Below, in pieces: positions 8,496-27,196 of a stretch of DNA of 64,000 bases; position 1 is the first letter of the stretch; each line of letters opens with the position of its first letter. A program made the translations under genes and the position numbers. The stretch comes from Rhizobium acidisoli (GTDB lineage: Bacteria; Pseudomonadota; Alphaproteobacteria; Rhizobiales; Rhizobiaceae), in NCBI RefSeq assembly GCF_002531755.2, contig NZ_CP035001.1, positions 645,382 to 709,381 on the forward strand, written 5' to 3'. A model generated the notes under the pieces. It was not told where the DNA came from. It did not search any database and was given only the letters and a program-made list of their open reading frames with translations.

Positions 8496-10100
8496 TTACC
8501 CATCCAGCCCCTTGAAGCGCACCGGCTGGTAGCCGCGCATCAGCAGGCTGCCGAGCGAATAGGTGTTGCGGCAAACGCGGCCCTTGCAGGCGTTCGGCGA
8601 GGCCTCCATCACTTCCACCTTCCTATCGGCGGTGAAGCGCATGAACAAGAGCACATGCGAGCCCGGCTTGTTCAGCGCGTCGCCCGGCCGCATTGACCAG
8701 GGGTCGGAGAGGCGCTTGGTGATGCCGGGAATGGCGCGCGTCGTCACGTGCATCTTCAGGCCCCAGGCGTCGCTGACGAAGCCGGAGCAGTCGACGCCGA
8801 GGATATTGGATTGCGGCGCGCTCTTGGTGCAGACATTGCCGGCGGTCTGGCCCTTTTCGACGCCGTCCATGAAATCCTCGAGCCGGGTCTTGCAGCCCCA
8901 GCAATAGGGAACGCCCTTCACCGTCTGGCCGCGCTTGCCGATCAGATAGATCGGCCGGCGCAGCCGGTTCATGTTGATGCAGCCGGGGCCCGGGTCCTTG
9001 CCATAGGCGGTTGATGTCACCAGCCAGTTCAGCGTCTCGAAGCCGATCGCCCGCTCGATGACGTCGCTGCGCGACTTCGGCACGATCGCCAGTTTCGGCG
9101 CCTTGCCCGGCTTGCCGGCATTGAGCGGTTTTGCCGGCCGCGCGACGGCAAGCTTTCGGCCAGGGTCGCGGCCGTCGAGCCGCAGCACCTGCGCCCGGCT
9201 TTCCTGCGATTTGAGATAGAGCACGTCGCCGCGCGGACCGATCGCCACGAAACGCCTGGAAAAGACCGTGCCGGGGTCGATCGGCAGGTCGTAGACCCGG
9301 TCGATCGCCCCGTTCGGCGCGAAGCGCACCACCAGCATGCCGGTGCGCTCCGCCTGATCGGCGGGAACGAGTTCGACCAGCGCATAGGGTCTGCCCGTGG
9401 TGTCGATGTCGAGAAGTTCGACGGTGCCGATGCGGCCCTCGGCAGTCAGTGGCAGCGACAGGAAATTCTCCTCCGAGCTGCTGCGTCGCAGCAGGATCTC
9501 CGCCTTGTCGTTTGCAGCCGAGACTTCGGCGACGATATCGCCGAGCCCGCGGCTCGGCACATATTGAATGACCGGCGGGCGGGCCGCCGGCCGGCTGGTG
9601 CTGCGGCCGATCTCGTCGACGATGCTGTTCAGCGGCCCCGGCGGCACCGAGCCCATCGAGGCGAAGACCGAGCGGGTGTAATCGTCGGCATCGCCGCCAT
9701 CGACCGCGCGCAGCGTCTGCGACCTTCCATCGGCCTCGGTGGAGCGTTCGAGCGGCACGACACCGTCCGACCAGAGGTAGAGTTCGTTGTGGACGACGGC
9801 GAGATCTTCCGGGGTGGCATTTTCCGGCAGCGGCAGGATTTCGGGCTCGGCCTGCGAGCGCTCGGCGTCGATGGCGAGCACGCGGCCATTGTTCTGGTCG
9901 AGAATATAGATGGTGCCGTCGTCGCCGACGGTGATCGCCGCAGGTCCCGATGCCTCGACTTCCTCACTGGCGGAAATAATGCCGACCGAGCGGCCGCCAT
10001 CGCCGCTGCGAAGCTCTATAATCGTCGTGTCTTTGGCAAAAACCGGCGAGGCGACCGCAAGTGCCGCGGCAATCAGAATATGCGACCCAAAACTACGCAT
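8496..10100 (-). CDS. Exported beta-propeller-like protein with C-terminal NlpC/P60-like domain
   Basis: A 534-aa protein starting at ATG 10100, where a clear signal peptide begins (MRSFGSHILIAAALAVA, cleaved near VFAKD). The open frame runs on upstream, but that part has no protein-like character and overlaps the divergent gene. Residues about 30-330 contain repeated beta-strand motifs (GDDGTIYILDQNNGRVLAI) like an NHL/SMP-30 propeller. The C-terminal 170 residues hold VDCSGFVSDAWG, which supplies the catalytic Cys, and the downstream GSHVLLF His. Several further cysteines may form disulfides. A periplasmic peptidoglycan or peptide hydrolase role is inferred from the NlpC/P60 fold; the propeller could bind a partner or wall. 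Confidence 0.7.
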   Translation of the reverse strand: MRSFGSHILIAAALAVASPVFAKDTTIIELRSGDGGRSVGIISASEEVEASGPAAITVGDDGTIYILDQNNGRVLAIDAERSQAEPEILPLPENATPEDLAVVHNELYLWSDGVVPLERSTEADGRSQTLRAVDGGDADDYTRSVFASMGSVPPGPLNSIVDEIGRSTSRPAARPPVIQYVPSRGLGDIVAEVSAANDKAEILLRRSSSEENFLSLPLTAEGRIGTVELLDIDTTGRPYALVELVPADQAERTGMLVVRFAPNGAIDRVYDLPIDPGTVFSRRFVAIGPRGDVLYLKSQESRAQVLRLDGRDPGRKLAVARPAKPLNAGKPGKAPKLAIVPKSRSDVIERAIGFETLNWLVTSTAYGKDPGPGCINMNRLRRPIYLIGKRGQTVKGVPYCWGCKTRLEDFMDGVEKGQTAGNVCTKSAPQSNILGVDCSGFVSDAWGLKMHVTTRAIPGITKRLSDPWSMRPGDALNKPGSHVLLFMRFTADRKVEVMEASPNACKGRVCRNTYSLGSLLMRGYQPVRFKGLDG

Positions 10101-10280
10101 GTCCTCGACCCCCGAACAGGACGATGTCAGGCCGGCTCGGCCTTCTCTGACCGTCAAGTCTTCGAAATGGTAAGATAGATGCGCCTTGTCAGCAAGCCGT
10201 TGCTTTCCAAACGATTTGGAGATTGGCGCCGGCGATAGTACAAGAACATCGTCTCGAAGATTTGCTGGCGGGAAATGCTT

Positions 10281-10871
10281 ATGCTGGAATGGAACGGTGA
10301 CGAACTGGCGCTCGATATCAGCCTGCTGGAGCAGGTGCGCGCCGCAAGGATAGGCTTCTCCGATCGCGTCTGCGCCGCCTCGCAAAGCACCGATGACAAG
10401 CACCTGGCGCAACTGCGCTCCGAGCCGACCTATCTGATGGCCGAATTCCTCTATTCGATGAAGGTCTTCGGCATCAACACGGCAGAGGATATCGAGCGCT
10501 TCGCCGATCTGCACAATGATTACGTGGTTTCGCTCACCCGCGATCCGGCCAAGCTGCAGCGCCTGGGGCTGTCGCAGGATCGCGCGCTCGCCTCGATGTT
10601 CACCGCCGACACCAAGCCGCGGCTGATCCAGAACTGGGCGGAGAAATCCGGCGCCATCGACCAGTCCAATCTCGCCCGTTTCCTGGTGGCGGTTATGTCG
10701 AGCGAGACCTGCCGCAAGACGCTGATCGATTTCGAGACGGCCGGCTTCATGCAGCGCAAGCGCTCGCCCTATGGCACCATGGTCGTCTGGTCGACGGGAA
10801 CGATCGAGGAGATCTTCGGCGAAATGCTGCGGGACCTGCGCCTCAGCCTGCAGCAATTGAAGATCCTCTGA
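10281..10871 (+). CDS. Conserved hypothetical cytosolic protein
   Basis: A 196-aa mostly helical protein with no signal peptide or membrane segment. ATG 10281 is preferred over 10275 because the GGCGGGA ribosome site sits 7 nt upstream of it. The C-terminal half (FLVAVMSSETCRKTLIDFE, then GFMQRKRSPYGTMVV) reads like a winged-helix arrangement similar to MarR/replication-regulator-type folds, but the match is weak. It is transcribed divergently from the propeller/NlpC gene across about 180 bp. It could be a regulator; I do not recognise the family. Confidence 0.6.
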   Translation: MLEWNGDELALDISLLEQVRAARIGFSDRVCAASQSTDDKHLAQLRSEPTYLMAEFLYSMKVFGINTAEDIERFADLHNDYVVSLTRDPAKLQRLGLSQDRALASMFTADTKPRLIQNWAEKSGAIDQSNLARFLVAVMSSETCRKTLIDFETAGFMQRKRSPYGTMVVWSTGTIEEIFGEMLRDLRLSLQQLKIL

Positions 10872-11134
10872 CCCGGCGCCAAAGCAACGGATTGAAGCAT
10901 TCGGCTGGCGCAAAAGGAGCCCGCAGGATCGACCGGCGCCTCGGTCAAGTAACGCGCCCCTTCGATTGTCGAAGATAGTGCAAAACCAGGAAAAACCCGG
11001 AAAACTGTAGCCCGGCAGCGACGCTATAATACGGCGTCTCGAAAATTGTTTGGCCAAATCGCGGGTCTTCGAGCATGATCGGATGGGATGCCAATCTAGT
11101 TTGTTCGCGGGGGCGAACATGATCGGGGGACTTC

Positions 11135-11926
11135 ATGAAATCTCGCTTGAAGCGCACTCTGGCAGCCGTCGCGGGCTGCCTCCTTGCCGGCGGCGCCATG
11201 GCAGCGGACATCCGCTCGCCAATGACGCCGGAGGTTAAGCAGACCACGACGGAAAGCGGCTGGACATTCTCGTTCGCGCCATACTTGTGGATGGCGGGCC
11301 TGTCAGGAGATGTCGCCCAGTTCGGGCTGCCGGAGGTGCATGTCGACGCGAGCTTCAGCGAGATCTTCGATCATCTGGATTTTGGTGCCATGGCGATCGG
11401 GGAAGCCCGCTATGGCCCCTACAGCATTGTTGGCGATGTGATGTACACGAAGATTTCGGGTCAAGCCGGCACCCCGAAAGGGTTTCTAGCAACCGATGTC
11501 GAGCTCTCGAGTGAGACCTTCGCAGGCTTCCTCGGCGCCGGTTATGCCGTTTTCGAAGACAGTTCCGCGCGGCTGGATGTCGTCGGCGGCCTGCGTGTCT
11601 GGTCCGTGGAAAGCGAGCTTTCCTTCCACGGCGGCATTCTGGACGGGCGCTCCAGAACGGATAGCGCAACCTGGGTGGACGGCTTGGTCGGCTTCAAAGG
11701 CACCTACGCCATTACCCCGGAGGTCTACCTGACCGGCTGGGGACTTGTCGGCGCCGGCGGCGCTGACCTCGATTGGGACGTTGCCGCTGCGATCGGCTAC
11801 CGGTTCGCCGACAACGTCTCGGCCGTTGCCGGGTACCGCGCGCTCGGGGTGGATTACAGCAACGACGACTTTGTCTTCGACGTCGTCCAGCAGGGCCCGA
11901 TGTTGGGGCTGGTGATACACTTCTAA
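11135..11926 (+). CDS. Outer membrane beta-barrel protein
   Basis: A 263-aa protein with a signal peptide (residues 1-23, ending GGAMAAD). Alternating amphipathic strands run through the mature part (FAPYLWMAGL, GPYSIVGDVMYT, GYRFADNVSAVAGYRAL), and the C-terminal residue is Phe (LVIHF), the typical BAM recognition ending. It resembles small rhizobial porin-like or Omp25-like barrels. Ribosome site GGGGGA precedes ATG 11135. It converges with the HupE-like gene at 12032. Transported substrate, if any, is unknown. Confidence 0.75.
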   Translation: MKSRLKRTLAAVAGCLLAGGAMAADIRSPMTPEVKQTTTESGWTFSFAPYLWMAGLSGDVAQFGLPEVHVDASFSEIFDHLDFGAMAIGEARYGPYSIVGDVMYTKISGQAGTPKGFLATDVELSSETFAGFLGAGYAVFEDSSARLDVVGGLRVWSVESELSFHGGILDGRSRTDSATWVDGLVGFKGTYAITPEVYLTGWGLVGAGGADLDWDVAAAIGYRFADNVSAVAGYRALGVDYSNDDFVFDVVQQGPMLGLVIHF

Positions 11927-12031
11927 TGCATGTCGCCTGGAAGTGTGCAGCGGTTCCGGGATAACGACATGCATCAAAACAAAGAGCTAAAGCGCGGCCG
12001 GTTCCGGCCGATCCTTGCTCGGCGCCATCTC

Positions 12032-13027
12032 TCATATCCCGAGACCGGCGATCCTGGGAACGAGCCACAACATCGACGCCGTCCCGATCGCGTAGGCGCC
12101 GAGCCGGCGGGTCGGCGCCGGCGGCAAGGCGACGAGAGCGGCTCCGATCCTGAACAGGACCAGTATCGCCGCAACGAAGATGAGCTGCCCCGCCTCAACG
12201 CCCAGGTTGAACGCCAAGAGGCTCAGCGGCACGTCCGATTGCGGCAGGCCGGTTTCCTTCAATGCGCCGGCGAAGCCGAAGCCGTGCAGCAGTCCGAACG
12301 CGAAGGCCACGAGCCAGGGATAGCTCTCGGACAGCCGCCTCTCGCCCGGTTCCGTCTTGACCAGTTCGCGCGCCACAAACGCAATGCTGAGCGCGATCGT
12401 GGCTTCCACCGGCCTTTGGGGCAGGCTGAAATATCCAAGCGACGCTCCAGCCAGTGTGATGCTGTGGGCGATCGTAAACGCCGTGATGGTCTTGAGCAGC
12501 ATCCAGCGGTTTCGGATGAGCAAGATGAGCGCAAGCACGAAGAGCAGGTGATCGAGGCCGGAGAGAATGTGGTCGACGCCGAACAGGAAGTAGGTTCGCG
12601 CCACTTCGATGCTCGTCTGCGTGCCGGCCGCCACGAAGCGCGGCCGATCGGGCAGGAGGCGCGCAAGCTCGGTATCTCCACTCGCATATTCGATGCGCAC
12701 CAGCGCTTCGGTCAGCGTCGACTTGAGGCCGTCGATGCTGATCTCGCCGCCTTTCAGGCCGCCCGCGCAGGCGACGTTCCAGCGCTCGAAATAGGCGCCC
12801 TGCTCGATCGACCGAACCGGCTCGGAATTCTCCGCGCAGGCGGCCGGCAGCCGCGCATGAAGCCCGAGGCGCATCTCGCCTTGCGCCGGCACCTTCCAGA
12901 CGACGGCGAACGTGTCGGTGGCGGTTTCGCGCATGTCGAGATAGGCCGGGCGGACTTCGTGCGCCTGGGCTGCCGCCGCAAGCAGCACGGCGAGCAGGAC
13001 GGCGAATATTCTGCCGATCGGCTTCAC
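12032..13027 (-). CDS. HupE/UreJ-family membrane protein
   Basis: A 331-aa protein. The start is taken as GTG 13027, which overlaps the stop of the upstream PPIase gene by 4 bp (GTGA) and opens directly on a signal sequence (IGRIFAVLLAVLLAAAAQA). After an exported region of about 150 residues come several membrane helices with the HupE/UreJ_2 signature FGVDHILSGLDHLLFVLAL and a later FGLLHGFGFAG. The His-rich helices suggest metal (nickel or cobalt) handling, but in the HupE_2 subgroup the role is not established. It is the last gene of a DUF3604-PPIase-HupE-like operon. Confidence 0.75.
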   Translation of the reverse strand: MKPIGRIFAVLLAVLLAAAAQAHEVRPAYLDMRETATDTFAVVWKVPAQGEMRLGLHARLPAACAENSEPVRSIEQGAYFERWNVACAGGLKGGEISIDGLKSTLTEALVRIEYASGDTELARLLPDRPRFVAAGTQTSIEVARTYFLFGVDHILSGLDHLLFVLALILLIRNRWMLLKTITAFTIAHSITLAGASLGYFSLPQRPVEATIALSIAFVARELVKTEPGERRLSESYPWLVAFAFGLLHGFGFAGALKETGLPQSDVPLSLLAFNLGVEAGQLIFVAAILVLFRIGAALVALPPAPTRRLGAYAIGTASMLWLVPRIAGLGI

Positions 13028-13872
13028 CGGCCGGTCTCCTTGCCGGCAAGGCTCTCGATCGTCACCGTGTAACCCCCGAGAAGCTTCGCAAATTGCTGGT
13101 CTTCGAGTTCGCTGCGCCTGGCGTTCGTCCACTCCCGCGCGACGGCGTCACGCACTTCACCGAGCGAGGGCGTACGGTCGGGCACACGCTCCGTCACCCG
13201 CACGAGGTGCAGCCCGAAACCGGACACGACAGGCCCGATCCATTGATCGAGGGGTGCCTGGTCGAGCGCCTTGGCGAAATCGGCCCCGAAGGTCTGCGTG
13301 ATCGAAGCGCTGTCGGAGAGCGCAGCCTCGGGCGGCAGCAGCGTGGCGTCGCCGAGCAGCGAGCGGTTCGCCTTCGGATCGGACAGCAGAATCTGGAGGA
13401 TGGAGCCGGCGTCCTCTCTGGCCCGGCCGCCGTGCCGCTGCGGGCTCAGGAATACCTGCTCGAAGGCCAGCATGCCCTCGATCCTGAATGCGTCGGCGTT
13501 GCTGGTGAGATAGGCTTCGAGTTCCGCGTCGGTCGGCTCCAGCGCCTCGGCGTCCGCCGTGTTCAGGAACTCCATCTTCTGGCGAAGGCGCCGCCTGACC
13601 ACGGCATCGTCCCTGTCGAGCCCGAGGGCGAGCGCCTGACGGACGAGGACTTCCTCCTTCACATAATCGTCGATCAGCCCCTTGAGCTCGGCCGCGCTCG
13701 GCGGACGCTGCCAGGTCTTGGTGAATAAGGTCGCCATCTGCTCGATCTTCGGCGCGGTAACGACGATTCGTTCCTGCCTTTCGCCGGCGCCGACCAGCGC
13801 GTAGCCGGCGAAGATCGCAAGCGCGAGCGCCAGAAAATGCACGAGGGGTTCTTTGAGAACGCGCTTCAGCAC
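13024..13872 (-). CDS. Parvulin-type (PpiC) peptidyl-prolyl isomerase, membrane-anchored
   Basis: A 282-aa protein with an N-terminal membrane segment (FLALALAIFAGYALVGA, about 12-28), a SurA/PrsA-like helical region (about 40-130), and a parvulin-like domain (about 130-250) ending in GFGLHLVRVTERVP. It should face the periplasm and help fold exported proteins. It lies 16 bp downstream of the DUF3604 gene and overlaps the HupE-like gene by 4 bp, so the three are likely one transcript. Its client may be one of the two operon neighbours, which is inference. Confidence 0.8.
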   Translation of the reverse strand: MLKRVLKEPLVHFLALALAIFAGYALVGAGERQERIVVTAPKIEQMATLFTKTWQRPPSAAELKGLIDDYVKEEVLVRQALALGLDRDDAVVRRRLRQKMEFLNTADAEALEPTDAELEAYLTSNADAFRIEGMLAFEQVFLSPQRHGGRAREDAGSILQILLSDPKANRSLLGDATLLPPEAALSDSASITQTFGADFAKALDQAPLDQWIGPVVSGFGLHLVRVTERVPDRTPSLGEVRDAVAREWTNARRSELEDQQFAKLLGGYTVTIESLAGKETGR

Positions 13873-16312: not shown

Positions 16313-16690
16313 ATGACGAAATCCCGGCTCATACCCCTGTCGATCGGCCTGCTGCTGGCGCTGCAGATGCCTCAGCTTGGCCATGCCGGCCCGGCCGAGG
16401 ATGCGCTGGCGGCTCGCAACCCCGCGCTGGCGGCGCTGCGCCAGCATGACGAAAAGGCCTTTGCCGCAGCGACTGCGATCATCGCAGAACACGAAAGCGC
16501 CAAGGGGCTGACACCCGGTCAAGACAAACTCCCGGACGCGACCTCGCCCGGCCGCGACATGGGCTCGGGCCCCGGCAAGGAATTCGCGGTCGATAACCCG
16601 GATATTCTCTGGCTCTATAATTCCTCGCCCGAAGGGATGAGCGACCTGATCTCGATTTTGAAATCAGCCGGGCAGAAACCCAAGAACTAA
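16313..16690 (+). CDS. Small exported hypothetical protein
   Basis: A 125-aa protein starting at ATG 16313, where a signal peptide starts (MTKSRLIPLSIGLLLALQM, cleaved near GHAGPAED). The mature part is about 100 residues, helical near ALAALRQHDEKAFAAA, then low-complexity with Gly/Asp, ending in SDLISILKSAGQKPKN. I do not recognise it. It lies 211 bp upstream of the OmpA/DUF4384 gene on the same strand and may belong to that envelope cluster, though it is probably separately transcribed. Confidence 0.55.
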   Translation: MTKSRLIPLSIGLLLALQMPQLGHAGPAEDALAARNPALAALRQHDEKAFAAATAIIAEHESAKGLTPGQDKLPDATSPGRDMGSGPGKEFAVDNPDILWLYNSSPEGMSDLISILKSAGQKPKN

Positions 16691-16901: not shown

Positions 16902-18833
16902 ATGTCGCACCGCAAAGCCATCCTAGCCGCAGCCACCTTTCTCTCGTTCTTTGCGGTGGTTCCCGCCGTCGAGGCGCAGAACGAACGCACACTGACCGAA
17001 GCGCCGGCCCAGACCGGTCCCGTCAGCATCACCTTCGATCGCGCCGAGGCCAAATACGCCATCGGCGAAGTCGTCGGCCTGTTCATCCAGTCGACGGAGA
17101 ACAGCTATGTCACGGTGCTCAACGTCTCGCCGAACGGCTCCGTCATCAAGCTTTTCCCGAATAAATATCAGACCGATGCCCTCGTCGGGCCCGGCAAGCG
17201 CGTGCAGGTGCCGGATCCGGCCAGCGGCGCCCGGCTGCAGGTCTCAGGCCCGGTGGGTCAGGAGCAGATCAAGGTCTTCTATTCCTCCAAGCCGCTGACC
17301 ATCTTTGCCGATCTCGGCGGCAGCGGCAGCGGCATGTTCCGCTCGGTCGACGGCGGCATGGATGCCGTGTCCCGCAGCCTGGAAGAGGCCCGCAGCCTCG
17401 GCACCAAGATCAGCAGCAAGACGCTGATGCTGACGACGGTCGACAGCCCGGCGGCGCTGCCGCCCGCGGCCACCCCGCCCGTCGCAGCCGCCCCCGCAGC
17501 AAAACCGGTCGAACAGGCAGCCAAGCCGCCGAAACCGGCAGCCGCTCCGAAGCCGAAACCGGTGATCAAACAGGAAGCCGCCAAGAAGCCGGAAACGGTC
17601 GACAAACCGAAGGCAGCGCCAAAGCCGGTCGCGCCGAAGCCTGTGGAGCAGGCCGCGCAACAGCCGCCGAAGAAATACAAGATCGTCACCAATCTGGCGC
17701 CCGGCCAGGAGCTTGCCGCCGACGAGCTGCAATTGATCGGCCCCGCCGACGCCACCTCGTCCACTCGGCCAACGCAGTATAAGCAGCCGACCCAGTCCTC
17801 CCAGACGAAGATGCCGAAGCTGCCGATGCCGCAGCTGAAGATGCCGCAATTCAAACTTCCCGGCGGCTTCAGCATCAAGATGCCGCAGCTCAACCTCGGC
17901 CGCTCGGCCGAACCCAGCCAGGCCGGCGAGGAAATCGAAGTGGCGAATGCCGATACACCTCAATGCACCGCTCTTCTCGACAAGCTGAACACCGCCGTCG
18001 CCGCCAAGGATATCAATGCCGCCGCCTCCGAGGCCGATGCGATCGCCGTCAGCGCCGAATGCGGCCAGTTCCAGGTCAATGCCCAGCGCCGCGTTGCAGC
18101 CCTCAGGCTTTCCGCCGCCCAGGAGATGATGGCCGCCAACCAGCCGGTCGCCGATTACGAGCCGCTGCTGGTCGCCGCCGACAGTCCGCAGGTGCTCTGG
18201 CAGGCCTCCGCCACGCTCGGCGAGATCTATTTCTCCGCCCGCCGCTTTGCCGATGCCGCCGCCGATTACCAGCAGGCGATCGAGATCATCAAGAACGAGA
18301 CCCGCACGCCGAAGGCGCCGCCGGCCGACACGATCTCCGATCTCATCCAGCGCGCCGCCCAGGCCCGCATCCTGGCCGCCAATCCGACGAGCGACAACCC
18401 TGAAGGCAGCTTCGTGCCGGCCGAGAAGGACCACCGCAGCGGCGTGCTCGGCGGCATCTATTCCGAAAATGTCCGCGGCATCGTGCCGGTCTCCATTCCG
18501 GTGCCGATCACCTTCGACTTCGACAAGTCGAGCTTCACCTCGATCGGCACCGAGGCCGCCGAGGAATTGCTGGAGGCGCTGAAGGAGCAGAAGCCCGGCC
18601 GCATCATCCTGATCGGCCACACCGACCGGCGCGGCGGCGACGACTATAATCAGAAGCTCTCCGAACGCCGCGCCCAGGCGGTGGCCGATTTCCTGAAGAG
18701 CCACGGCATCGATGCCTCGATCGACGCCGAAGGCCGCGGCGCCTCCGAGCCGGTGGATGTGACGGCAACGGCAAACCTCACCGAAGACGATGTCGACGCG
18801 CTGAACCGCCGCGTCGAATGGCGCCGCGAATAG
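16902..18833 (+). CDS. OmpA-family protein with N-terminal DUF4384
   Basis: A 643-aa protein. ATG 16902 has a strong GAGGAGG ribosome site and opens a signal peptide (FLSFFAVVPAVEAQ); upstream codons in frame are not used. Residues about 35-165 form a DUF4384 domain (YAIGEVVGLFIQS, VIKLFPNKYQ). A Pro/Lys/Ala-rich linker (about 180-275) and an MP-repeat stretch (about 303-331) follow, then a helical TPR-like region (about 345-490). The C-terminal 120 residues are an OmpA peptidoglycan-binding domain (ITFDFDKSSF, LIGHTDRRG, LSERRAQAVADFL). It should be periplasmic and wall-bound. It leads the caspase/trypsin/serpin cluster and could be its anchor. Confidence 0.85.
   Translation: MSHRKAILAAATFLSFFAVVPAVEAQNERTLTEAPAQTGPVSITFDRAEAKYAIGEVVGLFIQSTENSYVTVLNVSPNGSVIKLFPNKYQTDALVGPGKRVQVPDPASGARLQVSGPVGQEQIKVFYSSKPLTIFADLGGSGSGMFRSVDGGMDAVSRSLEEARSLGTKISSKTLMLTTVDSPAALPPAATPPVAAAPAAKPVEQAAKPPKPAAAPKPKPVIKQEAAKKPETVDKPKAAPKPVAPKPVEQAAQQPPKKYKIVTNLAPGQELAADELQLIGPADATSSTRPTQYKQPTQSSQTKMPKLPMPQLKMPQFKLPGGFSIKMPQLNLGRSAEPSQAGEEIEVANADTPQCTALLDKLNTAVAAKDINAAASEADAIAVSAECGQFQVNAQRRVAALRLSAAQEMMAANQPVADYEPLLVAADSPQVLWQASATLGEIYFSARRFADAAADYQQAIEIIKNETRTPKAPPADTISDLIQRAAQARILAANPTSDNPEGSFVPAEKDHRSGVLGGIYSENVRGIVPVSIPVPITFDFDKSSFTSIGTEAAEELLEALKEQKPGRIILIGHTDRRGGDDYNQKLSERRAQAVADFLKSHGIDASIDAEGRGASEPVDVTATANLTEDDVDALNRRVEWRRE
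17809..17895 (+). repeat. Tandem MPxL/MPxF repeats in the OmpA-family protein
   Basis: The coding sequence repeats aagatgccgaag/atgccgcagctg units, giving five MP-x-[LF] motifs (MPKL, MPQL, MPQF and so on) separated by Leu-Pro. It lies between the Pro-rich linker and the helical region of the gene at 16902. The pattern recalls the KMP-type repeats of some large scaffold proteins; that is only resemblance. Confidence 0.6.
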
Positions 18834-18855
18834 CCGGGGCGAGGGGAGTTTGGCC

Positions 18856-20472
18856 ATGTCCGCATCCGTTTCCATGGCCGCCGCATTCGCCCTCCTCAGC
18901 CTGGCGGCGACAGAGACCCTGGCAAAAACCATCGAGGCGCCGGAGCGCGGCGCCGTCCGGGCGGTGCTGATCGGCATCGATCTTTACCGCAACGTTCCGC
19001 CGCTGCACGGCGCCGTCGCCGATGCCGAGGACCTTTCCCTTTCCCTGCGTTCGGTCGGCGTCGAGGACATGACGCTGTTGAAAAACGGCGAGGCCGACCG
19101 CGAGGGCATCTTCCATGCGATCGAAGCCGTGACGGAACGGGCAGGGACCGGCGATCTTGTCGTGCTCGGCATTGCCGGTCACGGCTCCAGCGAGCCGGAG
19201 CGCGTCAAGGGCTCGAAACCGAGCGGCCGCGACGAAGTCTATGTGCTCGCCGGCTTCGATACCCGCCTGCCCGGATCGCGCGAGCGCATCTTCGGCGACG
19301 AGTTCAAGGTGCTGATCCACAAGCTGGAGGCCAAGGGCGCCGATGTCGTCTTCATCGCCGATACCTGCCATGCCGGCGGCATGACCCGCGATGTCGATCC
19401 GCGCGGCGCCGAGATCACCTGGCGCCAGGCGCCGTCCTATACGATCGAGGAGGACGACCTCGCGCCGATCTCGACGACGGCGGATGCACTTTCCACCGGC
19501 TTCGATTTCAAGCGGCTGACCTTCCTTGCCGCCGTCGACGACAACACCAAATCGCCCGAAATCTCCATTCCCGGCATCCCGCAGAAACGCGGCGCGCTGA
19601 GTTATGCCACCGCCCGCGCCTTCGAAGGGGCGGCCGACCGCAACGGCGACGGCGCCGTCAGCCGTCGCGAACTCTTCGAATATGTGCGCCAGGCGGTCTA
19701 TCAGTTCACCGACCAGCGGCAGAATATCTTCACCCAAAGCCCGCCCGGAACCGATCTCGATCGCGCCGTCGTTTATGATTACCAGGGGGCGGGGGCACAG
19801 GCGGCGGCGGAGAAATCAAGCGTTCCGCCGCCCGCCGAGCCCGCGCCGATCAGCGTTGCCGCGCTCGGCGCCGAGCCGGTGCTGCAGGGCATCGAGCCGG
19901 CCGTCACGCCGTTCAAGCTGACGGATGGCGCCAAGGCCGAACTGGTCTTCGATCCCGAAAAGCACGAGGCGATTGCCGGCGGCGATGTCGTCGCCTCCGG
20001 CATCGGCGCCGGCGACATGCCTTTCGTCGTCGACCGGATGGCCGCGCTCGACACGCTAAAGCGGCTGTCGGAGGTCAATCCGCAGACCGTGCGGGTGACG
20101 CCCTCCGATACCGTCCATCGCGAGGGCGAGCGCGTCGGCGTCACGGTCTCCGATCTATCCAGCCGCAAGCTCGTGCTCTTCGACGTCACCGGCGATGGCA
20201 CCGTGCAGTTCCTCTATCCCGCCGAGAAAGATGCCGAGGCTGAGATGCCGGCGAATTTCGACCTCGATCTGTCCGTCGTCGCCCCTTTCGGCACCGATCT
20301 GCTCGTCGCCGTCACCTCCGAAACCCCGATGCCCGAACTCGTCGAGTTCCTGAAGCAGAACGATAGGCGCCGCACCGCCGGCAATATCGCCAGGCGGCTC
20401 GGCGACGTCCTGCCCGAGGGCGCCCGCGTCGGCTTTACCGTCCTCTATACCTCCGCTGGAGCCAAGCTATGA
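18856..20472 (+). CDS. Secreted caspase-like protein with EF-hand loop and DUF4384-like domain
   Basis: A 538-aa protein. ATG 18856 is preferred over TTG 18850 because GAGGGGA lies 8 nt upstream. Residues 1-24 are a signal peptide (ending ATETLAK). A caspase-like domain covers about 34-280 with His109 in AGHG and Cys171 in ADTCHAGG, so the dyad is intact. A perfect 12-residue EF-hand loop, DRNGDGAVSRRE (261-272), lies in the caspase C-terminal part. The last 200 residues include a DUF4384-like domain (EGERVGVTVSDLS, VQFLYPAEKD). Periplasmic, possibly calcium-dependent. It starts 22 bp after the OmpA gene and overlaps the trypsin-caspase gene by 4 bp, so these are one operon. Confidence 0.85.
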   Translation: MSASVSMAAAFALLSLAATETLAKTIEAPERGAVRAVLIGIDLYRNVPPLHGAVADAEDLSLSLRSVGVEDMTLLKNGEADREGIFHAIEAVTERAGTGDLVVLGIAGHGSSEPERVKGSKPSGRDEVYVLAGFDTRLPGSRERIFGDEFKVLIHKLEAKGADVVFIADTCHAGGMTRDVDPRGAEITWRQAPSYTIEEDDLAPISTTADALSTGFDFKRLTFLAAVDDNTKSPEISIPGIPQKRGALSYATARAFEGAADRNGDGAVSRRELFEYVRQAVYQFTDQRQNIFTQSPPGTDLDRAVVYDYQGAGAQAAAEKSSVPPPAEPAPISVAALGAEPVLQGIEPAVTPFKLTDGAKAELVFDPEKHEAIAGGDVVASGIGAGDMPFVVDRMAALDTLKRLSEVNPQTVRVTPSDTVHREGERVGVTVSDLSSRKLVLFDVTGDGTVQFLYPAEKDAEAEMPANFDLDLSVVAPFGTDLLVAVTSETPMPELVEFLKQNDRRRTAGNIARRLGDVLPEGARVGFTVLYTSAGAKL

Positions 20473-23024
20473 GCGCGTCGATCAGCAGCATCCTCAACGT
20501 TGCGGCCGTCATGCTTCTGCTGGCCTCACCGGTCCTTGCCCAGCAGGATACCGATTTTGCCGGCGAAGATGGCGGCCGTGTCATCGGCGGCCAGGCGGCG
20601 AAGAAGGGCCAATGGCCCTGGCAGGTAAAAATCCTGGCGCCCGATCCCGAACAGCGCGGCCGCTTCGGCGGCCATTGCGGCGGCTCGCTGATCGCGCCGC
20701 GCTGGATCCTGACCGCCGCCCATTGCGTCACCAGCGGCCGCTCCGGCAAGCAGGATCTCTTCGCCCGCGACCTGTTGATCGTCGAGGGCAAGTCGAAGAT
20801 CGACAAGGTCATCTCCGTCGACGGGCCGGATAAACCCGGCCTTGCCGTCGAAGACGTCGTCATTCATGAGGATTTCGACCGCAAGGTCTTCGCCAACGAC
20901 ATCGCCCTGATCAAACTGGCCGAGCCCGCCGTCTCCAGGCCGGCCATTCTCGCCTCGGCCTCCGATGACGAGGTGGAGGCGGCCGGCCACAAGGCCGTCG
21001 TCACCGGCTGGGGCTACACCAAGGCCGATCATGGCTGGGACGACAAATACCTGCCGACAGAGCTGCAGGAAGTCGAGCTGCCGATCGTCCCGCGTGAGGA
21101 TTGCCGTGCGGCCTATCGCGACAGCTCGATGCGGATGAACCCGATCGACGAGCGCAATGTCTGCGCCGGTTATGCCGAAGGCGGCAAGGATGCCTGCCAG
21201 GGCGACAGCGGCGGGCCGCTGGTGGCCCAGCGTTCCGACAAAAGCTGGGTCCAGCTCGGCATCGTCAGCTGGGGCGCAGGCTGCGCCGAGGCCGAACATT
21301 ACGGCGTCTATACCCGCGTCGCCGCCTTCCGCGACTGGATCGCCGCCAAGACCGATGGCGACGTGCCGAATGTCGAAACGCCGGCCAGCGATCAGGTCGC
21401 CTCGACCACCACCGGCCCCGGGACCAAGCTCAGGCAATCCGGCCAGAAACTGGCCAATCTCGCCATCACCACCCCGCCCGCCGGCGATACCGCCCCTGCC
21501 ACCACGAGCCAAACACCCGACGCATCAGCCGTCGAACCCGCGCCGGCTGACAAGCCTGCCGCCGGGGAACCCACCGTCCAGCCGCCCGCCATCGAGACGC
21601 CCGCTGTCCAGGCCCCCGATGGCCAAACGCCCGGCATCCAAAGCTCTCCCGGCGATCGCGCGCTGCTGATCGGCATCGACGATTACGAGATGCGCGAGGC
21701 AAAACTCACCGGCTCCGCCAGCGACGTCAAGGCGATGCAGCTCTTCCTGGTGAAGACGCTCGCCTACCGCCCGGAACAGATCCACACGCTGACCAACCGC
21801 AAGGCGAGCCGCGAGGCGATCCTAGCCGAAATCGACGACTGGCTGGTGCGCCAGTCGACGCCTGGCAGCCGGGTCTTCCTCTATTTCAGCGGCCAGGGCT
21901 CGGAGGAAATGGGCGCCGAGGCGACGACCAGCCCGACGCTTGTCGCGGCCGACGCCAAGCTGGTGCGCGAGGCCGGCAAGGTGACGGTCACCAACCAGAT
22001 CCGCGAGACGGAAATTGCCGCACGGCTGAACAGCCTCAAGGACCGCCGCGTCACGCTGCTGATCGATGCCTGCCATGTCGGGCCCGGCAGCCGCAGCGCG
22101 GTGGCGGCACCAAGCGGCGGCAACGTGCGTTGCCTCGGTCCGGCGCTGGCAGCACTCGAAACGCCGAACAAATCGGGCAAGGAGGCGAAATTCTCCTTCG
22201 GCGGCGAAAACGCCATGGTCTGGTCGGCGGTCAATTCAGGCCAATGGGCGCTCGTCGACCGCGAGGCCAAGCCGCCGGTTGGCGTCTTCACCCGCCGCTT
22301 CATCGAAGGCGTCGAGGATGGGGTGGCGCGTGCCGCCGATAAGCCGAATGTCAGCAATGCCGCCCTGCTCGATTATGTCCGGCGCAAATCCGACGAATAT
22401 TGCCGGACGCATGCCGACGATTGCCGCTTCACCCCGGTGCCGCAATTTTATGGCCAGCCGGATGCGCTCGGCCGCGATGTCATCACCGGCGAGGAGGCGA
22501 AAACCCCCGTCGCCGCCGTCGAGAATACTTTGAAGACCGACAATGAGGCGGGCGTCGCCGTCGACGTGCTGCCCGGCACCTCGGTCGGCATCGGCGACAA
22601 GGTGGCGATGCGGGTCTCCACAAAGAAGTCCGGTTACCTGATCCTCGTCGATATCGACGCCTCCGGCAAGCTGACCCAGCTTTACCCGAACAAGCGCTCG
22701 ATGGGGCTGAAGCCGACAGCCAAGAGCGGCGACAACCGGCTCGATCCCGCCCGGCCGGTCGTCGTGCCCGATGCGCGCAATCCCTATACCGGTTTCGAAT
22801 ATGTGGTGGAGGGACCTTCAGGCGTCGGCATGGTCGTCGCCATCCTCAGCGACAAGCCGATCGAAGTACTCGACCTGCCGGATGTGCCGACGCCGCTGGT
22901 CGGCCAGCGTGCCGCCTTCAACTATGTCTATGATCTCGCCCGAACATTGAGGATCGTCGGCGACGACGACACCGGCGCGCAGGGCAAATGGTCGTTCGAT
23001 TCCAAATTCTATCGCATCCGCTGA
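20469..23024 (+). CDS. Secreted trypsin-like protease fused to altered caspase-like and DUF4384 domains
   Basis: An 851-aa protein. Signal peptide 1-25 (LASPVLAQ). A chymotrypsin-fold domain (about 38-292) has His85 in TAAHC, Asp144 in NDIAL, and Ser247 in GDSGGP, with Asp241 at the S1 position and the SWGAGC and GVYT glycines, so Lys/Arg specificity is expected. R37-VIGG is a standard zymogen cleavage site, and six cysteines sit where the family has disulfides. A Pro/Thr-rich linker (300-392) joins a caspase-like domain (about 395-660). Its Cys535 is kept (IDACHVG) but the catalytic His is Gln476 (FSGQG). A DUF4384 domain follows (about 690-780). It is translationally coupled to the caspase upstream, and a serpin gene starts 14 bp downstream. 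Confidence 0.9.
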   Translation: MSASISSILNVAAVMLLLASPVLAQQDTDFAGEDGGRVIGGQAAKKGQWPWQVKILAPDPEQRGRFGGHCGGSLIAPRWILTAAHCVTSGRSGKQDLFARDLLIVEGKSKIDKVISVDGPDKPGLAVEDVVIHEDFDRKVFANDIALIKLAEPAVSRPAILASASDDEVEAAGHKAVVTGWGYTKADHGWDDKYLPTELQEVELPIVPREDCRAAYRDSSMRMNPIDERNVCAGYAEGGKDACQGDSGGPLVAQRSDKSWVQLGIVSWGAGCAEAEHYGVYTRVAAFRDWIAAKTDGDVPNVETPASDQVASTTTGPGTKLRQSGQKLANLAITTPPAGDTAPATTSQTPDASAVEPAPADKPAAGEPTVQPPAIETPAVQAPDGQTPGIQSSPGDRALLIGIDDYEMREAKLTGSASDVKAMQLFLVKTLAYRPEQIHTLTNRKASREAILAEIDDWLVRQSTPGSRVFLYFSGQGSEEMGAEATTSPTLVAADAKLVREAGKVTVTNQIRETEIAARLNSLKDRRVTLLIDACHVGPGSRSAVAAPSGGNVRCLGPALAALETPNKSGKEAKFSFGGENAMVWSAVNSGQWALVDREAKPPVGVFTRRFIEGVEDGVARAADKPNVSNAALLDYVRRKSDEYCRTHADDCRFTPVPQFYGQPDALGRDVITGEEAKTPVAAVENTLKTDNEAGVAVDVLPGTSVGIGDKVAMRVSTKKSGYLILVDIDASGKLTQLYPNKRSMGLKPTAKSGDNRLDPARPVVVPDARNPYTGFEYVVEGPSGVGMVVAILSDKPIEVLDLPDVPTPLVGQRAAFNYVYDLARTLRIVGDDDTGAQGKWSFDSKFYRIR

Positions 23025-23038
23025 AGAGGAGGGAACCC

Positions 23039-24220
23039 ATGCCGAAATCCACTCTGCTGGCGGGTCTTGCCGCTTCGCTGATGACGCTTGCCCCAGCCCA
23101 TGCCGACAACACCGGCGACAACAAAACGATACTCGCCGCGCAGGCGGGGCTTGCCGCCGAGCTCATCGAGCGCACGCTGGCAAAGGAGGGTGCAGCCAAT
23201 ATCATGGTGTCGCCGGCAAGCCTTGCCGCAGCCCTCGGCCTTGCCAGCCTCGGCGCCTCTGCTGAAGGCAAGGCCGCGATCGCCAAGGGCCTCGGTTTCG
23301 GCAGCGAGGTGAAGGGACCGGAGACGGTGCTTGGTGCGATGACCCCGGAGAAGCCGGCAGCGGCGGATGCGCCTCTGGCGACGGCGGTTGCCATCGTCTT
23401 TGACGACAAGCTGGTGCTCGTCCCCGACGCGCTGTCCATGCTCGCCGCCCACCGGATCAAACCATCAATCGAAGATCTCGACGGGCCGAACTCGGTCGAG
23501 CATATCAACGGCTGGGTCAAGGAGACGACGCGGGGCGCCATTCCCGTCATGCTCGACGCGCCGCCCGGCGGCGGCTTCGTCAGCCTGGGCGCACTGTCCT
23601 TCAAGGCGCGCTGGAAGACCTCCTTCGAGAAAGAAAGCCCGGCAAGCCCCTTTCAGCGGCCTGATGGTTCGACGATTTCGGTGCCGATGATGCATCTCGC
23701 AGGCGATGGGCAGAAATTCCGCTTCGACGAGAAATTCGCGGCCGTCGATCTTGCCTATGCCGGCGAAAGCTACAGCATGGTCGTGGTGGCGGCGCGCTCC
23801 GGCAAGGGTGTCGGCGGCGCCGACCTGAAGGCCTTGACCTCCTGGCTGCAGGGGGAAAAATTCGAACCTGCCAAGGGTGAAATCTTCCTGCCCCGCTTTT
23901 CCCTGAGCGACGGGCGTGATTTGATGCCGGTGCTCAATCAGATGGGCTTGGCGGCCGGAAAGGCCAAGGATGCGGCTTTCCCGGGTTTCACCAAGGAAAA
24001 CATTCGCTTGTCGCGCGTTCTTCAGAAGACGATGCTCAAGCTCGACGAAAACGGCACGGAGGCAGCGGCAGCCACGGCAGTAATCACCGAACGCAGCATC
24101 GATCCGAAGCTCGTTCGCGTCGTTGCCGATGCCCGTTTTGCCTTTGCGCTGAGAGATACAAGAACCGGCCTGCTGCTCGCCGCAGGCCTGATCGGCGATC
24201 CGCTTCTGGCCGGTGAATAG
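23039..24220 (+). CDS. Secreted serpin (serine protease inhibitor)
   Basis: A 393-aa serpin with a signal peptide (residues 1-22, TLAPAHAD). ATG 23039 has an AGGAGGG ribosome site; the longer frame overlaps the upstream gene. Serpin landmarks include IMVSPASLAAALGLASLGA, HINGWVKETTRG, ALSFKARWK and the C-terminal FAFALRDTRTGLLLAAGLIGDP. The reactive-loop hinge GTEAAAATA (339-347) is of the inhibitory type. Counted from the conserved C-terminal side, the scissile bond falls at Arg352-Ser353, matching an inhibitor of trypsin-like enzymes. Counted from the hinge it would fall one residue later, so the loop is one residue short. It lies 14 bp after the trypsin-caspase gene, which is the natural candidate target. 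Confidence 0.9.
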   Translation: MPKSTLLAGLAASLMTLAPAHADNTGDNKTILAAQAGLAAELIERTLAKEGAANIMVSPASLAAALGLASLGASAEGKAAIAKGLGFGSEVKGPETVLGAMTPEKPAAADAPLATAVAIVFDDKLVLVPDALSMLAAHRIKPSIEDLDGPNSVEHINGWVKETTRGAIPVMLDAPPGGGFVSLGALSFKARWKTSFEKESPASPFQRPDGSTISVPMMHLAGDGQKFRFDEKFAAVDLAYAGESYSMVVVAARSGKGVGGADLKALTSWLQGEKFEPAKGEIFLPRFSLSDGRDLMPVLNQMGLAAGKAKDAAFPGFTKENIRLSRVLQKTMLKLDENGTEAAAATAVITERSIDPKLVRVVADARFAFALRDTRTGLLLAAGLIGDPLLAGE

Positions 24221-24250
24221 AAATGCCAATGATTGCAGGGGGACACGTGC

Positions 24251-26656
24251 ATGAGAAGTGATCTGATCGCCCGCTACACGATCGGCGAGCCGGTCTATGA
24301 GAACGAGTTCATCGTCTATCCCGCTCAGGACAAGCGGATGGACCATGCGGTCTTCATTGTCGCCCCCGATGTGGCGTTGAAACTGGACAAGGCGCGTTTC
24401 GAGCGGGTCTGGACCTCGATCAACGAGGCGAAATCGCTGACCGCACGGCGCTTCGTCGAAATCGAGGACCTGATCCCGCCATCGCCGGAAGACGACAATT
24501 TCTACATCGTCGAGAAGCGGCCGTCGAAAACGCTGCACCAGTATCTCGACGAAACGGAAATGGTGGCCTACGAGCGCGCCGCCGAAATCGGCCGCCACAT
24601 CCTTGAGGGCCTGGCGACGCTGCACGGCGCCGGTTACGCCCACAATGCGCTGACGGATCAGTGCATCTACGTCTCCGAGGATTATTCCGGCCTGTCGGTC
24701 CGGATCGGCAACCTGCACCTGATCTCGAAGATCGGCGAGCACATCATCCCGCCCTATGTGCCGGAGTTCGGGGCGCCGGAGATCTATGCCAGCGGCACCT
24801 TCTCCGCCTCATCAGCTCTCGACATCTACGCCATGGGCATGATCGCCTACAAGCTCTTCCTGCCGCGCCAGACCTATAACAGCGTCTTCGACAGCGTCAT
24901 GGTCTGGGAAGACGAGCACCAGCGCGAGCAGAGCTGGAAGAACATCCATCTCGATCCCTCCAATATCTTTCCCCGCCTCGACGTGCTGATCCCCGGCTTT
25001 CCCGAAGGTCTTGCAAGCCTGATTGAAAGGATGCTGAGCCGCGACCCGGCCCAGCGCCCGCGCACCGGCGCCGATGCGCTCGGCGAATACACAAGGGTGA
25101 CGACAGGCATCCAGCCGATGTCCTGGGATCCGCGCGGCGGCATGCCGCAGCAGCCGGAGGCGGCGAAACCGAAAAAATGGACGCCCGTCAAAATCTCGAT
25201 GATCGCAGCGCTGCTGTTGATCTGCATCGGCGTCGGCGTCGTCACGATCCCGAAACTGTTGCGCCCGGATCCGAAACTCGTCGCCGATGTCGGCACCTGG
25301 AAGAAGGAAGCCGAAAGCCGCAAACAGAAGGCAATCGCCGCCAAGGCGCCGGAACGCCCGGCCAGCGACCAGGCCAAGCTTTCCTACGACACCGGTGCGG
25401 CGGCGCTGACCTCCGCCGATGCGCTGCTCAAGGACGAGGACTATGAAAAAGCCCTTCCGGGCTATCAGTCTGCCGCCATCAATCTCGGCAATGCGCTGAT
25501 CGCCATTTCGAAGGAGAGTGCCGAGAAGGCGAAAGCGTCAGCCTCGGCTGCCGGCGGCGACAAGGCGCCGAGTTTCGCCGAGGCCGACGCCAAGATGAAG
25601 GCCGCCGCCGACAGCGCCGCCGCCAAACAGATGCACGGCGCCATCGACAATTACGATGCCTCGAAAACCGCTTTCGATGATCTCGCCAAGGCGCTGACCA
25701 CGCTGGCGGCGGCCGAAAAGAACGCAACGGCAAAACGCGAGACCGTCAATCGCATCGGCGCCGGCGATAGTCCCGACGTCGCCAAGGCGAGCGGCCTGAT
25801 GACCGATGCCAAGGCCAAGGCTGAGCAATGGCAGATGCCGGCGGCGACCTCGGGCTATGGCGACGCCGCCAAACTTTTCGACGCCCTCATCGCCGACGTC
25901 ATGGCGTCGAAGGACGAGGCAACGGCGCTGAAGCAGAAGGTCGCCGATCTCAACGCCTCGATCACCACCCGCGCCGGCGCGGCCGATCCGACGCTTGCCG
26001 CACTCGCGCCGAAAATCGGCGAGGCCGATGGCCGCTATAGCGCCGAGGCCTATAAGCTCGCCGTCGTCGCCTACAAACCGATCCTTGCCGATCTCGAGGC
26101 GCTGTCGGCGCGCGGTTTCTGCCCGGTTTCGCCGACCCTTGCCTTCGAGCAAGTGCCGGCGGGAAGTTATTCGCTGGAGAATGTTCGGCTGATGACCGCC
26201 TCGATGAAGGAGCTCGGCGGCATGCTCGGCGTCGCCAATGGCGCCGTGAAGGTCGAAAAATCCTTCTGCATGCAGGCAAAGGCCGTCACCCGCGCCGAGA
26301 TGGCGGCCTATTACACCGCCAACTCCGATCCCGCTAGCGCCCAGGCATACAGCGACAACCCCGAGCTGCCGGCCGACGACGTGCCGCTCGCCGTGGCGCA
26401 GAACTATACCGCCTGGCTGTCGAAACAGTTGAACGCCCCGGTCCACCTGCCGTCGGCAACCGAATGGATGGCCAGTGCGACAAAGATGGAAACGGAAAAA
26501 CTGCCCGACAATGGCGACATCCTCCTGCAATGGAGCGCCACGCCCTGCGAAGCCGGCGGCAACGTCGCCTTCATGGCGCAGGAAGGCTCGACCTTCGTCG
26601 TTTGCTCGGACGCTTCAGCCGGCGGCATCTTCCGGGTGACCGCGGAATTGCGGTGA
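24251..26656 (+). CDS. Membrane pseudokinase with coiled-coil region and C-terminal FGE-like domain
   Basis: An 801-aa protein; ATG 24251 has AGGGGG 8 nt upstream. Residues about 1-280 have a protein-kinase fold in outline, with an APE-like GAPEIY and DIYAMGMIAYKL, but the HRD motif reads HNA (AHNALTDQC) and the DFG motif reads GNL, so the catalytic Asp and metal Asp are missing. One transmembrane helix lies at about 312-335 (KISMIAALLLICIGVGVV). An Ala/Lys-rich helical region (about 340-610) follows, then a C-terminal FGE/sulfatase-modifying-factor-like domain (CMQAKAVTRAEMAAY, HLPSATEWMAS). The kinase lobe should be cytosolic and the rest periplasmic. It lies 30 bp after the serpin and is probably the last gene of that operon. 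Confidence 0.8.
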   Translation: MRSDLIARYTIGEPVYENEFIVYPAQDKRMDHAVFIVAPDVALKLDKARFERVWTSINEAKSLTARRFVEIEDLIPPSPEDDNFYIVEKRPSKTLHQYLDETEMVAYERAAEIGRHILEGLATLHGAGYAHNALTDQCIYVSEDYSGLSVRIGNLHLISKIGEHIIPPYVPEFGAPEIYASGTFSASSALDIYAMGMIAYKLFLPRQTYNSVFDSVMVWEDEHQREQSWKNIHLDPSNIFPRLDVLIPGFPEGLASLIERMLSRDPAQRPRTGADALGEYTRVTTGIQPMSWDPRGGMPQQPEAAKPKKWTPVKISMIAALLLICIGVGVVTIPKLLRPDPKLVADVGTWKKEAESRKQKAIAAKAPERPASDQAKLSYDTGAAALTSADALLKDEDYEKALPGYQSAAINLGNALIAISKESAEKAKASASAAGGDKAPSFAEADAKMKAAADSAAAKQMHGAIDNYDASKTAFDDLAKALTTLAAAEKNATAKRETVNRIGAGDSPDVAKASGLMTDAKAKAEQWQMPAATSGYGDAAKLFDALIADVMASKDEATALKQKVADLNASITTRAGAADPTLAALAPKIGEADGRYSAEAYKLAVVAYKPILADLEALSARGFCPVSPTLAFEQVPAGSYSLENVRLMTASMKELGGMLGVANGAVKVEKSFCMQAKAVTRAEMAAYYTANSDPASAQAYSDNPELPADDVPLAVAQNYTAWLSKQLNAPVHLPSATEWMASATKMETEKLPDNGDILLQWSATPCEAGGNVAFMAQEGSTFVVCSDASAGGIFRVTAELR

Positions 26657-26884: not shown

Positions 26885-27196
26885 ATGTGCTGGAACACAT
26901 CAGCAGCATTCACGCCGGTCGGTTTTGCTTTGCGAGGTCCGGCATCTCGTAAGATCGTATGGACGCTTGGAGACGCGGCGCGTCTCCTGATGAACGATTG
27001 GCCTTGCGATGACGGCGAGGAATATGTGGCGGCCGTGAAAGCCTGCGTCGACGCAATCAGCGGGAAAATTGCCCCGGAACAATTCCGGGAAGCGCTTCTG
27101 CGTGCGGCCGAAGAGGCTGGTATCGCCGCTCTCTGTCTCGTCCCGCAGGGCGTCGCAGCGCGGCGGCCGGACCTGCCGTCGAAGGCGCAAAGATAG
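26885..27196 (+). CDS. DUF982 family protein
   Basis: A 103-aa protein starting at ATG 26885, with GAGG just upstream. It has the DUF982 pattern typical of rhizobia: RKIVWTLGDAARLLMNDWP, then the Tyr/Ala/Cys stretch YVAAVKACVDAI and an AAEEAG segment. These small proteins occur in many copies in Rhizobium genomes and have no established function. It stands alone between the pseudokinase operon and the pentapeptide gene. Confidence 0.8.
   Translation: MCWNTSAAFTPVGFALRGPASRKIVWTLGDAARLLMNDWPCDDGEEYVAAVKACVDAISGKIAPEQFREALLRAAEEAGIAALCLVPQGVAARRPDLPSKAQR

Follow-up and report, generated by a model that had tools for sequence, protein, structure and literature searches.

A six-gene cluster of Rhizobium acidisoli encoding a trypsin-caspase fusion, a caspase, a serpin and a pseudokinase: a candidate envelope protease cascade

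The role of prokaryotic serpins has been called enigmatic (PMC8233489; statements on papers cited by PMC number refer to the available parts of their text). Here, we describe a gene cluster of Rhizobium acidisoli in which a serpin gene stands among genes for a trypsin-caspase fusion, a second caspase, a predicted wall anchor and a membrane pseudokinase. The cluster lies in a stretch of 64,000 nucleotides (assembly GCF_002531755.2, contig NZ_CP035001.1, positions 645,382 to 709,381, forward strand), referred to as the window, on a 709-kb contig whose nearest protein relatives are those of Rhizobium leguminosarum and its kin. Positions below are those of the window; L and G numbers are our handles for loci and genomes.

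Gene content and layout

16313..16690, plus strand: small predicted secreted protein of 125 amino acids, no Pfam family, directly upstream of gene A
16902..18833, plus strand: gene A, DUF4384, linker, TPR-like and OmpA regions, predicted peptidoglycan anchor (Pfam)
18856..20472, plus strand: gene B, secreted-looking caspase (orthocaspase) with an EF-hand-like loop and a weak DUF4384 (Pfam, motifs)
20469..23024, plus strand: gene C, fusion of a trypsin zymogen with a pseudo-caspase domain and DUF4384 (Pfam, motifs)
23039..24220, plus strand: gene D, serpin (Pfam, alignment, solved-structure relatives)
24251..26656, plus strand: gene E, membrane pseudokinase with a predicted periplasmic helical stalk and an FGE-like C-terminus (Pfam, motifs, hydropathy, fold model)

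The original prediction described a tightly packed five-gene operon, and this layout was borne out: A to E all read on the plus strand, with junctions of 22 bp (A/B), a 4-bp overlap (B/C), 14 bp (C/D) and 30 bp (D/E). A sixth gene had been missed. This conserved small-protein gene, 211 bp upstream of A, also precedes A in 10/10 other loci that carry A, B, C and E in order (L032, L033, L034, L035, L143, L144, L173, L125, L124, and L179), with protein identities of 61% (L035), 57% (L125), 54% (L179) and 50% (L124), and it belongs with A to E. A scan gave 5 promoter-like sites where 1.6 were expected and 9 terminator-like sites where 11.2 were expected; we drew no evidence from any of them.

The predicted domain list stood for A, C, D and the main domains of B and E, all over the Pfam cut-off, and fell short for the EF-hand of B and the FGE-like part of E. 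Gene A matched DUF4384 (6e-20) and OmpA (2e-16; 60.3 bits, cut-off 27.2), with TPR below cut-off; its OmpA domain has both Asp575 and Arg590, which we take to be the peptidoglycan-binding ligand residues. Gene B matched Peptidase_C14 (2e-12), with EF-hand and DUF4384 below cut-off; gene C matched Trypsin (2e-54), Peptidase_C14 (6e-14) and DUF4384 (3e-16); gene D matched Serpin (1e-55; 190 bits, cut-off 27); and gene E matched Pkinase (4e-12). The FGE-sulfatase match of E in the window was 0.003 (17.7 bits, cut-off 23.3), and PF03781 was precomputed in P0261-P0263. Signal peptides had been assigned to A through D; inspected by eye, all four starts look Sec-like, and a 19-residue hydropathy scan, used with that inspection in place of a dedicated predictor, was clear only for A and C, marginal for B and gave nothing for D.

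Trypsin, caspases, serpin and pseudokinase

20577..20582, plus strand: Arg37-Val38 of C, predicted zymogen activation site of the trypsin (Arg|Val-Ile-Gly-Gly motif)
21189..21191, plus strand: Asp241 of C, S1 pocket (trypsin Asp189 position; numbered by motif)
21207..21209, plus strand: Ser247 of C, trypsin nucleophile (motif)
21894..21896, plus strand: Gln476 of C, replacing the caspase His (motif)
22071..22073, plus strand: Cys535 of C, the kept caspase Cys (motif)
24092..24094, plus strand: Arg352 of D, predicted P1 bait residue of the serpin (R-S bond; alignment)
24641..24649, plus strand: His-Asn-Ala of E, residues 131-133, replacing the kinase HRD (motif)
25187..25249, plus strand: single predicted membrane segment of E, about residues 313-333 (hydropathy, strong, near residue 315)

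The trypsin domain of C has an intact His-Asp-Ser triad, an S1 Asp of the Arg/Lys type and six cysteines (residues 70, 86, 212, 232, 243, and 272). Among the best 120 of 864 ortholog matches, which are 90-95% identical, the triad and S1 Asp patterns were found in 119/120 and an Arg ahead of [IV][IV]GG in 120/120. A wider sample of 22 more varied trypsin genes from the fetched loci retained the His and Ser/S1-Asp motifs in 22/22 and the catalytic Asp motif in 20/22; the activation site was located in 19 of the 22, with Arg in 18 and Gln in one. The nearest solved relatives, both by sequence and by fold, are plasma kallikrein and factor XI, and in solved structures the light chain of plasma kallikrein, like that of factor XIa, starts at the position of C residue 38. 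The best 50 rows of the fold comparison were all trypsin-type proteases, so that it says nothing on the caspase part of C.

That caspase part had been called altered, and correctly: Gln replaces the His and the Cys is kept. In the same 120 orthologs the dyad is Gln/Cys in 118, Arg/Cys in one and His/Cys in one, with Cys in 120/120; lacking the p20 His/Cys dyad, the domain is a pseudo-orthocaspase in Rhizobium. Beyond Rhizobium, C carries Gln/Cys in L124 and has lost both motifs in L126-L129. Gene B has an intact p20 dyad (His109/Cys171) and an EF-hand-like loop from residue 261. A neighboring caspase with both catalytic motifs was present at 13/14 serpin loci checked, the exception being L174, where the search pattern missed the Cys motif. 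Loci L136-L138 show the opposite of Rhizobium, with B dead (GAG, DTG) and the caspase of C intact (GHG, DSCF). The presence of an intact caspase at 13 of 14 loci and this exchange between B and C suggest that the cluster needs one working caspase, in whichever gene it lies.

Other caspase-like genes were observed nearby. The window holds a second caspase gene (4572-7154, plus strand) with a secreted-looking start, caspase and Sel1 repeats and both motifs; stretches resembling it were found close to the cluster in L124, L126, L128, L129, L161, L174, and L175, and on pRL11 a caspase gene of the same length (matched by length, not by alignment) lies about 4 kb from the operon. Such a gene may serve as the working caspase where that of C is dead and B is absent. 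In L135, a CHAT-domain protein (L135:2518-5391, minus strand) adjoins the caspase of the serpin cluster; the CHAT domain is related to the caspase clan.

The nearest solved relatives of the serpin D are conserpin and miropin. Its hinge, ENGTEAAAAT, is of the inhibitory type (ExGTEAAAA) and near-invariant in 22 aligned serpins picked from 120 listed matches; Arg352 is invariant in the same 22, down to 35% identity, and its flanking residues vary. The loop up to Arg352 is one residue shorter than that of antitrypsin, presumably as in C1-inhibitor and antiplasmin. For a wider comparison, the bait was called as an Arg lying 13 or 14 residues past the P15 Gly in serpins of the fetched loci; short loci were removed where a longer one covered them, as were two rows in which no hinge could be recognized. 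A P1 Arg was present in 19/19 serpins clustered with A, B or C homologs (10/10 lineages as grouped by us) and in 13/83 serpins of other bacteria and archaea, drawn from the best 80 loci of the search (Fisher P of 2e-12 unweighted and 1e-7 with only the clustered side collapsed to lineages, the rows being related to one another). On NZ_CP092350.1, CP090110.1, CP090201.1, and CP090113.1 the match to the serpin gene is split in two, which suggests broken frames or errors in the sequence.

Gene E had been called a pseudokinase, and its motifs agree: HRD reads HNA and the DFG Asp is Asn. Among its homologs, the HRD Asp is replaced by Ala in 28/28 (His-x-Ala), and the DFG Asp is mostly Asn, with Asp in three Chthonobacter-like rows and the motif not found in one. 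A fold search returned Mycobacterium tuberculosis PknA/PknB-type kinases at the top; its best 50 rows were all kinases and leave the periplasmic part unnamed.

Conservation and distribution

Gene order in other rhizobia had been named as a check on the original prediction and was compared here. A-B-C-D-E is conserved on one strand in 10 loci: the window, L032, L033, L034, L035 (R. lusitanum), L143, L144 (R. johnstonii pRL11), L173, L125 (Chthonobacter rhizosphaerae), and L179 (N. galegae; order kept, with frame breaks in the record). Looser forms occur beyond these, including in other families. Outside the window's order, L136-L138 read OmpA-caspase-trypsin/caspase-serpin on one strand, and L135 reads DUF4384-OmpA-trypsin/caspase-serpin, its separate caspase and its CHAT protein being encoded on the other strand. 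L130 reads OmpA-caspase-trypsin-serpin; in L070 (Aureimonas endophytica), L174, and L175 the serpin comes immediately after a trypsin gene; and L160, L171, and L177 have some parts of the cluster.

Searches of plasmid records (run for C and E at a stricter E-value than for D) matched each of D, C and E in 87 Rhizobium records and 1 Neorhizobium record, counted by genus, and in 7, 1 and 0 records of other genera, respectively. Serpin-bearing genomes were rare, numbering 4/247 in the family sample, 17/397 in the order sample and 9/385 in the class sample; most Rhizobiaceae are without a serpin. A clear A, B or C homolog lay within 10 kb of the serpin in 10/17 serpin genomes of the order sample, 5/9 of the class sample and 2/4 of the family sample. 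The seven unclustered genomes of the order sample are five of genus g53, G289, and G928; in three of the seven, the sole neighbor of this kind is a weak caspase match about 8 kb off. The g53 serpins carry Arg at the bait position or one residue before it, and G928 has the fusion, with its serpin on another contig and no Arg at the bait. The serpin of L169 neighbors a glutathione synthetase gene.

Neighboring genes

A DUF982 gene (26885-27196, plus strand) downstream of E is kept in six Rhizobium loci and was not found in L035, L124, and L125. Its likely counterpart by accession count is pRL110586, which was 2.3-fold up in a praR mutant (PMC4149787). Three open reading frames of 874, 263, and 380 amino acids (8496-11120, minus strand; 11135-11926, plus strand; 11930-13072, plus strand) separate the two caspase loci of the window, and no Pfam family was found for them at E 0.001.

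Relation to known systems

A Rhizobium metacaspase operon was mentioned by Asplund-Samuelsson et al. in 2012, in one sentence and a figure (PMC3501461), and is almost certainly the operon described here. The main text of that paper never mentions serpin or trypsin, and the part of it that deals with the operon gives no bait, zymogen, pseudoenzyme, distribution analysis or working model for the operon. The pseudo-orthocaspases of Rhizobiales with a QC dyad (PMC6426788) resemble gene C, with an intact-triad trypsin, a Gln-Cys p20 and DUF4384; serpin is absent from the main text of that paper, its available passages give no operon context, and pseudo-orthocaspases are suggested there not to regulate the true forms.

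Animal plasma cascades are similar in three respects: plasma kallikrein and factor XI are the nearest trypsin relatives, and the Arg|[IV][IV]GG zymogen motif and an Arg-bait serpin are shared. Plasma kallikrein and factor XI pair with the serpins C1-inhibitor, antithrombin and antiplasmin. Unlike them, the present set, a putative cascade, is bacterial and co-encoded, and includes a caspase and a predicted wall anchor. Bacterial serpins such as miropin, siropins and those of bifidobacteria share the serpin fold and inhibitory hinge, but their targets are host proteases (PMC8233489), whereas the present serpin has a candidate target in the adjoining gene. Some conflict systems known from multicellular bacteria likewise combine caspase and trypsin domains in one neighborhood (PMC7159879, PMC8195603); here, in contrast, no nucleoside triphosphatase (NTPase) partner was recognized, an envelope location is predicted and a serpin is present.

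In the open-licence literature searched, no paper joining serpin, trypsin, caspase, operon and Rhizobium was found, and nothing on the fit between bait and zymogen, on the dead kinase or on the small upstream gene; PMC2853523, which matched serpin and Rhizobium leguminosarum, has no serpin in the available main text. The original prediction had presented the set as an undescribed regulated periplasmic proteolysis system. Its observation is confirmed, being sound and conserved, and its interpretation is partly supported. The operon itself had been mentioned before, and novelty, within the open-licence text available, appears confined to the wiring and the wider distribution.

The sole operon phenotype met in the literature concerns pRL110591, called an outer membrane protein and needed specifically for lentil root colonization in a transposon screen (PMC11103875). 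We equate it with gene A (WP_011655314.1) by counting back protein accession numbers, since WP_011655321.1 is annotated as L-fuconate dehydratase and pRL110598 is so named in PMC7105596. The available text of PMC5118466 names only pRL110582, outside the operon.

Proposed cascade and alternatives

The reading we favor, to which we give slightly less than an even chance, is that the six genes would form one switchable envelope protease cascade, comparable to the clotting cascades of animals, in which a trypsin zymogen is ignited by a caspase and terminated by a serpin. It builds on the intact trypsin and zymogen motifs of C, the dyad of B, the hinge and Arg bait of D and the catalytic losses in E and in the caspase of C. 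A would fix the assembly to peptidoglycan, and DUF4384 (in A and C, weak in B) together with pairing of the caspase domains of B and C would hold the proteases together. The trypsin of C would be made as an inactive precursor; B, whose class cuts after Arg/Lys (PMC6426788), or auto-cleavage of C, would cut C at Arg37, and the freed trypsin would work on envelope or incoming proteins. D, cut at Arg352, would then trap the trypsin covalently, providing both a threshold and an off-switch. E would place its stalk and FGE-like tip outside and its dead kinase inside, and would signal the state to the cytoplasm by binding, not by phosphorylation. A more specific version strikes us as doubtful: that the cascade is a wall-anchored chain in the style of clotting, in which the second caspase domain docks (dead in Rhizobium) and the dead transmembrane kinase is the read-out.

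Several results weigh against the cascade. Its wiring, the single transcript, the envelope location and the complexes are all predictions from the gene sequences, and the structural models of C and E are of modest reliability, with mean predicted local distance difference test scores of 68 and 73, respectively, the latter including a well-predicted helical stalk (residues 340-620). The trypsin-caspase fusion often occurs without a serpin: 5 of the 8 genomes listed with the full fusion in one frame (G000, G023, G277, G155, G266, G230, G137, and G282) carry none, a serpin search in 14 of 86 genomes with any match to C gave 0/14, and Chthonobacter albigriseus (G155/L124) has the small gene, A, B, C with intact trypsin, and E, and no D. 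The view that every fusion is partnered by a serpin was therefore rejected; either a different brake is at work or the serpin is an added refinement. Conversely, the g53 serpin loci (L168, L169, L170, L172, and L176) have no clear module alongside.

The dead parts are likewise not constant. Both caspase motifs are present in C of L125 (Chthonobacter rhizosphaerae), L135, and L136-L137, and in L130 the domain is missing from C. A dead docking subunit is therefore no general requirement, which slightly lowers the chance that we give the cascade, and the idea that the design always includes a dead caspase domain was rejected outside Rhizobium and L124. Named homologs of E, in the 28-protein set, all belong to Rhizobium, Neorhizobium or Chthonobacter, and other clusters thus manage without E. 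The bait comparison is also weaker than its P values: a P1 Arg occurs in 8/14 unclustered serpins (13 alphaproteobacterial and one from an unassigned metagenome-assembled genome). On a quick tree of 99 serpins with the loop excluded (with L139 and L160 marked as long branches; close duplicates were removed, as were certain short or additional serpins, among the removed being those of L033, L143, L175, L140, L049, L043, L061, L102, and L103), cluster membership changes 3 times, giving 3 independent pairs and a sign test that is not significant. With only 3 independent contrasts the association of P1 Arg with the cluster cannot reach significance; it is consistent, not proven, and P1 Arg as proof of independent evolution is weakened by the tree.

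The pairing of a protease with its likely inhibitor, as originally proposed, is strengthened by the Arg bait, which matches a trypsin with an S1 Asp; the target may also be a caspase or a foreign protease. It is improbable, in our judgment, that the serpin chiefly inhibits caspase B, the Arg bait acting as a brake on B and C as a downstream effector. That view is supported by the finding that orthocaspases cut after positively charged residues, Arg/Lys (PMC6426788), and that serpins, as cross-class inhibitors, can trap cysteine proteases (PMC7863939), and it accords with the caspases at 13/14 serpin loci. Also in its favor, a caspase adjoins the serpin in L177, where no C-like trypsin was found within the fetched 20 kb, and the five g53 genomes, with Arg at or near the bait, have 8 to 23 PF00656 matches and no trypsin beside the serpin. 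Those genomes nevertheless carry 6 to 8 PF00089 matches elsewhere, the same-strand trypsin-DUF4384 genes directly ahead of the serpin in L070, L174, and L175 have no recognized caspase domain, and in the window it is the fused trypsin that is the serpin's direct neighbor.

We give a similarly low probability to an outward-facing serpin, directed against trypsin-like proteases of plants, predators or competitors, with the operon as a loose set for envelope proteolysis. Miropin and bifidobacterial serpins do act on host proteases (PMC8233489), the lentil root phenotype of gene A (PMC11103875, by the mapping above) would fit a role at the plant surface, and many genomes keep the trypsin without a serpin; however, a purely outward serpin has no need of its place between the zymogen and its partners, and that order is kept in 10 loci. 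Least likely by far is an anti-phage or self-killing device, in which infection or damage would fire the caspase and trypsin, the cell would die and the serpin would be the antidote. Caspase and trypsin effectors are known from bacterial conflict systems (PMC7159879, PMC8195603), and the PADLOC caspase model matches B and C, but the PADLOC kinase matches look like generic kinase similarity, an envelope location is predicted, and no NTPase or nuclease domain was reported by Pfam or PADLOC in the five proteins (EAD adaptors were not specifically searched). Membership of an anti-phage system was rejected, the PADLOC matches being to generic-looking caspase and kinase models.

The cascade model is testable and unproven. 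If it holds, bacterial serpins would gain a target within their own cell; the clotting-style version, if true, would be the first case of a bacterium's own proteolytic pathway under serpin control. One genetically tractable root symbiont carries the serpin together with a trypsin zymogen that matches it, a caspase that is a candidate activator and subunits that may exert control.
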